Under the pieces are notes generated by a model. It did not search any database, was not told where the DNA came from, and was given only the letters and a program-made list of their open reading frames with translations. A stretch of 50,225 bases of DNA, taken from NCBI GenBank assembly GCA_029213195.1, contig JARGNI010000022.1:44244-94468 (forward strand), given 5' to 3'. The DNA comes from Verrucomicrobiales bacterium. GTDB taxonomy: Bacteria; Verrucomicrobiota; Verrucomicrobiia; Verrucomicrobiales; DEV007. Shown here piece after piece: positions 49,664 to 50,225 of the stretch. The translations under genes were made by a program, and so were the position numbers. Numbering within the stretch: position 1 is the stretch's first letter; each line of letters begins with the position of its first letter.

Positions 49664-50128
49664 CTACTGAGAGCGCGAGTCCGAATCTGGTTTGGGCTTC
49701 CCGTCGTCCTCTGATTTCGAGTCCACACCGGTTGTGGGTTGGTCAGGGCCATCTTGTCCGTCCCCTTTTATTCCAGGCTCGGGACCCTTTGCTACCTTGA
49801 CCTTGAAGAATATGTTTTTCTGCAAGATGGCAATCACCTCCTCGGGTTTGGCCGAGCCAGTGTATTGAATCACCTGCCCTTGTTTCTTCACTTCTGGATT
49901 CCGGGACTCCTGTCCAGGAACCTTGAGATCAGAAATCCCAGCCGTATTCGCGAGTGCAGACCGCACCGCTTCAAATCGACCGCCTACTCATCCCATCCCA
50001 TCCACACTCAGGTACACAGTTCGTTCTTTCGGGTGAGCCAGCTCTGCTCGGACAGGCTCTTCTGCTGATGCTGTCCATGTGAGGACTGGCAATGTAAGGG
50101 CGCACACAATAGCAATCTTGTTGATCAT
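49664..50128 (-). CDS. Predicted exported selenoprotein, HMA/MerP-like, Sec at residue 47
   Basis: A single frame of 154 residues plus stop, interrupted once by TGA at 49988-49990. Upstream: signal peptide (MINKIAIVCALTLPVLTWTASA) and VYLSVDGMG. Downstream: VGGRFEAVRSALANTAGISDL, then KPEEVIAIL, i.e. the helix and strand order of a heavy-metal-associated domain. In that family GMxC precedes the helix; here TGA stands at the cysteine (residue 47), while the second CxxC position is Gly. A hairpin with apical loop GGUCU lies 25 bases after the TGA (SECIS-like). The C-terminal 40 residues are acidic and disordered. Alternatives: nonsense pseudogene or sequencing error. selA/selB/selC are not in the window. 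Confidence 0.72.
49950..49969 (-). promoter_or_regulatory. Predicted bacterial SECIS hairpin
   Basis: On the mRNA: GCGGTGC, loop GGTCT, GCACTCGC. Pairs are four Watson-Crick (GTGC/GCAC), one G-U, then, past a bulged C, two more (GC/GC). The loop starts 26 nt after the last base of the TGA at 49988-49990, within the usual bacterial range. From memory, the E. coli fdhF element has the same GGUCU in a loop flanked by TGC and GCACC. Confidence 0.7.
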
Positions 50129-50160
50129 GATCTGGGAACTTCTGTCGTTAGATACGCGAG

Positions 50161-50200
50161 AAAGTAGCACGTGACCTGATCCCGAAAAAGTGGACGTGCC
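50161..50200. repeat. Pair of imperfect direct repeats upstream of the selenoprotein gene
   Basis: AAAGTAGCACGTGACC (50161-50176) and AAAGTGG-ACGTG-CC (50187-50200) align with two gaps and one substitution. They lie 33-72 bases upstream of the start at 50128. Could be regulator-binding sites or part of a dispersed repeat reaching the window edge. Confidence 0.5.
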
Positions 50201-50225
50201 AAAATTGAAGTTCTGCCTCAAGATA

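Follow-up and report, generated by a model that had tools for sequence, protein, structure and literature searches.

Gene and reading frame

Two ORFs on the minus strand (49988-50221 and 49664-49966) were found in the same frame near the end of the window (the whole stretch of 50,225 nucleotides analysed here), with the TGA at 49988-49990 as the sole stop codon between them, as the initial annotation had described. When they are joined and read from the ATG at 50128 as the likely start, a protein of 154 residues with U at position 47 is obtained (Table 1), and the frame remains open for 107 codons downstream of the TGA. The codon usage 3' of the TGA gave a slightly negative score, yet the best one among the six frames by a narrow margin. 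Since the window stops at the end of the draft contig (C44), only 97 bases lie 5' of the ATG. The segment at 50168-50221, at this contig end, has further matches at the end of contig C57 and close to that of C73; a repeat or an overlap in the assembly graph seems to have broken the contig here. Owing to the signal-peptide-like N-terminus, export of the protein is considered likely.

Table 1. Positions of the predicted selenoprotein gene and its features in the window
Feature	Position	Strand	Remarks
Putative Sec-containing HMA-like gene	49664..50128	-	Start ATG at 50128; codon 47 is TGA (Sec); stop TAG at 49664-49666; 154 residues
Probable signal peptide MINKIAIVCALTLPVLTWTASA, then EE	50063..50128	-	Read by eye from the sequence; boundary approximate
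In-frame TGA, very probably read as selenocysteine	49988..49990	-	Beta 1/alpha 1 loop; first Cys of GMxC
Predicted SECIS hairpin with GGUCU apical loop (49958-49962) and core GTGCGGTCTGCAC (49954-49966)	49950..49969	-	Loop 25 nt after UGA
HMA-like beta-alpha-beta-beta-alpha-beta domain, residues ~36-113	49790..50023	-	AlphaFold model; top Foldseek matches are HMA domains
Acidic Gly/Pro/Asp-rich C-terminal tail, ~40 residues	49667..49789	-	Missing from aligned relatives; pLDDT ~52-63

Relatives and exchange of TGA for cysteine

The search of 33 genomes of the genus with the Pfam HMA model gave 16 matches with exactly one internal TGA and none with TAA or TAG. A separate hit, G013:C1, that contained both a TGA and a TAA was rejected as an artefact, as the two stops are located 5' of a gene whose CxxC is ordinary. 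The TGA-containing HMA relatives fall into two types. Type 1 (genomes G029, G023 and G013) resembles the window protein, with mostly lipoprotein-like N-termini and the motif GMxU-x-x-x-C-V; type 2 has the motif GMTGVTUGGC. Among the fetched sequences matching the respective motif, the site is occupied by TGA in seven and by a Cys codon in two of type 1, by TGA in 16 and by a Cys codon in three of type 2, and by TAA or TAG in none of either type. In the N-terminal linker of a two-domain Sec-HMA gene of G029 (L058:1151-1350), two additional in-frame TGAs are present (AEAQUPSK and ASTUSK).

The TGA of the window gene recurs at six other type-1 sites in three other genomes, and the downstream domain is intact in five of these six, the copy in G013 losing its frame later. 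An HMM built from the relatives, with the window protein left out, gave the window protein 31.7 bits (25.4 bits with X at the site), compared with 6.6 bits for the best of 996 shuffled sequences; the parts before and after the TGA, scored separately, gave 7.6 and 10.4 bits, respectively. The BLASTP alignment of the window protein with the relative G029b had an E value of 2e-6 across the site in that one comparison, and no sensible alignment was obtained with the segment downstream of the TGA alone. According to these HMM and BLASTP scores, the homology therefore spans the TGA, though it is weak on either side. The initial annotation had proposed a search with TGA translated as U and a comparison of residue 47 among the homologues; the homologues do align across the TGA, and they carry U or C at this residue.

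The identity between the window protein and its relatives is 28-35%. In the alignment with the nearest relatives, their motif U-x-x-x-C corresponds to U-V-G-G-R in the window protein, so that Arg stands at the position of the second cysteine. The second cysteine had earlier been taken as replaced by Gly (U-V-G-G), a reading that the U-x-x-x-C register corrects to Arg, while the placement of the TGA at the first cysteine of GMxC was borne out. No close orthologue of the window gene was found in the searches of the genus and of a phylum sample, and the query P0001 found no relative in the genome contigs. Among the matches listed for the phylum sample (387 genomes, each scored with at most 12 candidates), the gene's own genome was the only one with a TGA match at E <= 1e-6, and the TGA-bearing members of the genus did not appear in this list.

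Hairpin adjacent to the UGA

The GGUCU loop lies 25 nt past the UGA, and the base of the stem begins 18 nt past it. Thus, the earlier placement of a GGUCU hairpin at 49950-49969, following the UGA after 25 nt, is right in position and loop, and the 25 nt refer to the apical loop instead of the stem base. The rules for bacterial SECIS elements were taken from the accessible text of PMC13188914 (G in the first two loop bases, loop of 3-9 nt, stem of 4-16 bp, distance of 16-37 nt from the UGA and minimum free energy <= -7.5) and were applied by our own implementation. The window hairpin satisfies these published rules (loop GGTCT, 25 nt, -15.0), a SECIS search having been proposed in the initial annotation. 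Of 150 TGAs drawn at random from the window, 58 passed the same rules, so the hairpin by itself proves little and was dropped as stand-alone evidence for a selenoprotein; for the same reason, the earlier argument that a nonsense mutation would not leave a fitting SECIS is weak when taken alone. The folding energy was dropped likewise, the z-scores of four fragments (0.04, -0.54, -1.26 and 0.99) being ordinary. Rfam returned nothing for this stretch except a weak microRNA match, which was taken as chance.

The comparison of homologues was more informative. The core GTGCRGTCYGCAC begins 24 nt after the T of the TGA in all seven type-1 sites and has no further occurrence in the fetched DNA (~648 kb, with overlaps counted). 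The exact arrangement TGA-N21-GTGCRGTCYGCAC occurs at seven places in the 33 genomes of the genus, all of them type-1 HMA TGAs; with one mismatch allowed in TGA-N21-core, there were eight further matches versus four in the reversed control. Where the seven type-1 sites share an amino acid, the same codon is used in 66 of 72 cases at hairpin codons 8-11 and in 106 of 275 elsewhere; for the window gene against the six other sites, the corresponding values are 19/20 and 13/47. The chance that codons for VRSAL would spell the core was 0.0019-0.0026 under local codon usage.

The pair closing the apical loop is A-U in four, G-U in two and G-C in one of the seven sites. Of 500 shuffles, one matched the covariation score and 50 matched the number of pairs in which both bases had changed. 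In the common register, both sides of the two outermost stem pairs are changed in one and two sequences, respectively, and the same two pairs are broken in 4/7 and 2/7 type-1 sequences, the window included, whose own fold has a one-base bulge there. The bSECIS rules are satisfied at six of the seven type-1 sites, the first G029a site being the exception. The type-2 genes hold a different frozen hairpin, which is best seen at codons 6-9 (287/305). The conservation of the hairpin across the homologues is far beyond chance.

Selenium machinery and tRNA-Sec

In the same genome, selA (521 bits) and selB (301 bits) lie ~5 kb apart on contig C21, with a gene for a putative selenate ABC transporter binding protein between them (259 bits versus a cut-off of 250). 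The selD gene (386 bits) itself has an in-frame TGA (SSCAGUASK) and a hairpin, and is adjoined by SenB (309.8 bits, cut-off 300) and a SenA-like gene (400.5 bits, under the cut-off of 420). The whole cluster (L017, C21:9000-28000) thus comprises SenA-like, SenB, Sec-containing selD, selA, putative selenate ABC transporter and selB genes. Within the genus, selA is present in 24 of 33 genomes. All 13 genomes in which the two genus searches had found a TGA-HMA gene are selA-positive (p = 0.0044 by Fisher's test, with the relatedness of the genomes ignored); when G011, whose TGA-HMA gene came from a fetched locus outside the uniform search, is added, the count becomes 14/14 (p = 0.0024, relatedness likewise ignored).

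Of the four sel genes named in the initial annotation, selA, selB and selD are therefore present, and selC (tRNA-Sec) was not found in the draft (95.44% complete) by RF01852, loop patterns or ARAGORN. RF01852 gave nothing over the cut-off among the candidates scored in its two runs (150 of 929 and 92 of 930). One loop-pattern match (C59:2585) was rejected, as neither ARAGORN nor Rfam recognized a tRNA in it. A looser loop pattern gave at least 30 matches per strand versus 18 in the reversed control, and ARAGORN detected one tRNA-Gly and no tRNA-Sec in 30 loci selected by it; nor did it detect a tRNA-Sec on contigs C21 and C44 (2 of 115). The candidate L184 was rejected after only a weak tmRNA-like match had been obtained with Rfam; this locus, on contig C13 of the same genome, consists of a repeated sequence resembling the 3' half of a tRNA and adjoins an endonuclease-looking ORF.

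In the genus, RF01852 scored above 55 bits in 18 genomes, all 18 being selA-positive, and at 17 of the 18 loci ARAGORN called tRNA-SeC. Those lower-scoring matches over the cut-off that were checked proved to be tRNA-Ser or tRNA-Leu. Five other selA-positive genomes are likewise without an RF01852 match above 55 bits. Because the tRNA-Sec genes of the relatives fit our first search pattern in 17 of 17 cases, we infer that the copy of this genome probably lies in an assembly gap. In one genome, two tRNA-Sec genes were seen ~700 bp apart (L225, G010:C73).

Fold, metal site and neighbouring genes

The AlphaFold model, computed from a five-sequence alignment, has a mean pLDDT of 66.9 and the order beta-alpha-beta-beta-alpha-beta; residue 47 lies in the loop that connects the strand 36-43 to the helix 51-60. 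Within the domain, the pLDDT is at least 74 in six of the eight ten-residue blocks and 65 in the block with residue 47. The top rows of the Foldseek search were HMA domains, with ATP7B as the best one (TMt 0.81, E 1.7e-3) and none at E <= 0.001. The HMA-like domain claimed earlier is thus supported by the modelled fold and by the structural matches, and the predicted ligand is located in the beta 1-alpha 1 loop as in HMA proteins. A two-ligand site of the CxxC or U/CxxxC kind is absent, with one U and Arg at the second position, and the window protein would therefore offer one selenolate only.

At the type-1 locus G023a, 53 bp separate the end of the Sec gene from a TolC-like gene (below its cut-off), after which come genes for a CusB-like adaptor (over the general RND adaptor cut-off) and a CusA/CzcA-family pump (over its cut-off). 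No CusCBA-like neighbours were seen in the ORF listing at the other type-1 loci with listed ORFs. For the window gene, no neighbour points to a metal, because the upstream side is cut by the contig end and Pfam gave no match for the closest gene downstream. Nine of 20 fetched type-2 Cys relatives lie near an ORF with a VPVLPYE-like motif (L074, L075, L077, L079, L080, L082-L084 and L087), which we take, by its motif, to encode a putative ZnuA-type metal-binding protein.

Type-2 loci

The type-2 loci were examined in a wide-flank set of eight, which comprised six loci picked for a tRNA-Sec match on the contig and left out G029, G017, G015 and G027. In all eight (L247-L253 and L255), the Sec-HMA gene is divergent from an MnmH-like gene, MnmH being a selenouridine synthase, and a NifS-like gene, and in six of the eight a tRNA-Sec match lies on the same contig (five by ARAGORN, one by RF01852 only), both counts being biased by the way in which the six loci were picked. 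The MnmH assignment was over the family cut-off in one locus (L249) and was made by ORF appearance in the other seven, and the NifS match of the neighbour in L249 was below the cut-off. The MnmH-like and NifS-like neighbours, together with the tRNA-Sec matches, suggest that the type-2 Sec-HMA proteins may act in selenium metabolism, and these paralogues thus hint at a putative link between HMA proteins and selenium metabolism.

Interpretation

The apparent stop codon of the window gene very probably encodes selenocysteine at the metal-binding loop. The earlier reading of this gene as a selenoprotein gene is supported by the homology across the TGA in an open frame, the exchange of TGA for Cys, the conserved hairpin and the presence of selA, selB and selD; the insertion of Sec, export, metal binding and the kind of metal are inferred. 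We hold it to be highly probable that the product is an exported protein of the HMA fold, that the UGA at codon 47 is read as Sec and that the lone selenolate most likely binds a soft metal.

On this reading, the hairpin 25 nt downstream of the UGA would be bound by SelB with Sec-tRNA-Sec, and Sec would be inserted where the first metal-binding cysteine would otherwise stand. The window gene would be a divergent member of a verrucomicrobial family, the other Sec members of which have U-x-x-x-C, and in this copy the second cysteine would have turned into Arg, leaving one selenolate. The protein, most likely after its export, would bind a soft metal ion (Hg, Cu, Ag or Cd) by the selenolate in the beta 1-alpha 1 loop, and the bound metal might be sequestered or handed to an efflux pump.

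It is rather unlikely, though worth weighing, that Sec is inserted and the protein acts as a thiol/selenol redox protein or a selenium carrier instead of a metal binder. One chalcogen ligand is left in the window protein, as would suit such a role, and the Sec paralogues of type 2 adjoin MnmH-like and NifS-like genes in 8/8 of the partly selected wide-flank loci; however, metal-binding HMA domains have this same fold, the type-1 relative G023a lies upstream of CusCBA-like genes, and the putative ZnuA-like ORF (assigned by its motif) occurs near 9/20 of the fetched type-2 Cys relatives. A broader and more doubtful proposal is that the Sec-HMA proteins of the genus form a selenium or soft-metal relay, in which those of type 2, encoded next to MnmH, a NifS-like desulfurase and often tRNA-Sec, would carry selenol-bound selenium to biosynthetic enzymes and the window protein would be a stripped-down single-selenolate carrier.

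A recent nonsense mutation or a decaying pseudogene, in which a family member no longer functional would terminate at the TGA, would fit the Arg at the second cysteine and the divergence of the window copy from its relatives (28-35% identity), but we consider it improbable in view of the same TGA at six other sites in three other genomes with five intact downstream domains, the 107 open codons past the TGA and the hairpin codons kept in 19 of 20 cases. It is possible that the window gene once decoded Sec and is now beginning to decay. An error of sequencing or assembly, by which TGC, TGT or TGG was read as TGA, has next to no likelihood, since TGA stands at the same codon in other genomes and the adjacent hairpin is conserved, even though the gene sits at a draft contig end.

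Comparison with known families

The window protein matched no Pfam family up to E 0.01, including HMA (PF00403), the gathering cut-off of which (24.8) is passed by the four scanned type-1 Sec proteins with 40.7-83.8 bits. Its single NCBIfam match was NF041115 (UxxU_metal_bind) with 17.1 bits, below the cut-off of 95. This model of a metal-binding (seleno)protein is matched by all type-1 Sec relatives (36.1-68 bits) and is listed with two Sec residues (UxxU) in a table of the review PMC13188914, as far as its text is accessible, whereas the window protein has one U and no second Cys or Sec. NF045683 (MerT/CopZ fusion-like heavy metal transport selenoprotein) likewise has a CopZ/MerP-like domain with Sec, but the window protein is without the MerT part and NF045683 was not among its listed matches, and the type-1 Sec relatives reached 23-27.4 bits versus a cut-off of 375. 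NF047957 (CopZ family metallochaperone) was the best model for the four scanned type-1 Sec proteins (51.6-101.8 bits), its cut-off of 85 being passed by the two-domain G029a only; it is, however, not a marked selenoprotein family, and the window protein had no match to it at E 0.01.

In the accessible part of PMC2398784, MerP is listed as a selenoprotein in ocean metagenomes, and in that of PMC13188914 a cation-transporting ATPase E1-E2 (UxxC) and a putative mercuric transport protein (PF02411) are given as selenoproteins. The latter two resemble the window protein in the use of Sec for heavy-metal handling. Both are membrane transport proteins, unlike free exported HMA domains. The terms 'UxxxC' and 'verrucomicrob' have 0 occurrences in the main text of the 2026 review (PMC13188914), subscription literature lying mostly outside the scope of this comparison.

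Because HMA-, CopZ- and MerP-type selenoproteins are already known (NF041115, NF045683, MerP and the UxxC ATPase), the novelty is limited to the level of a variant; the earlier label of a new selenoprotein holds for this variant and not for the type as a whole. What is added is that, in a verrucomicrobial genus that is uncultured, two HMA lineages are predicted to contain Sec, the U-x-x-x-C motif and a lone-selenolate variant of it being found among them. The standard code splits these Sec-HMA genes in two, and together with their Cys relatives they offer a natural comparison of Sec and Cys within the same metal-binding loop.
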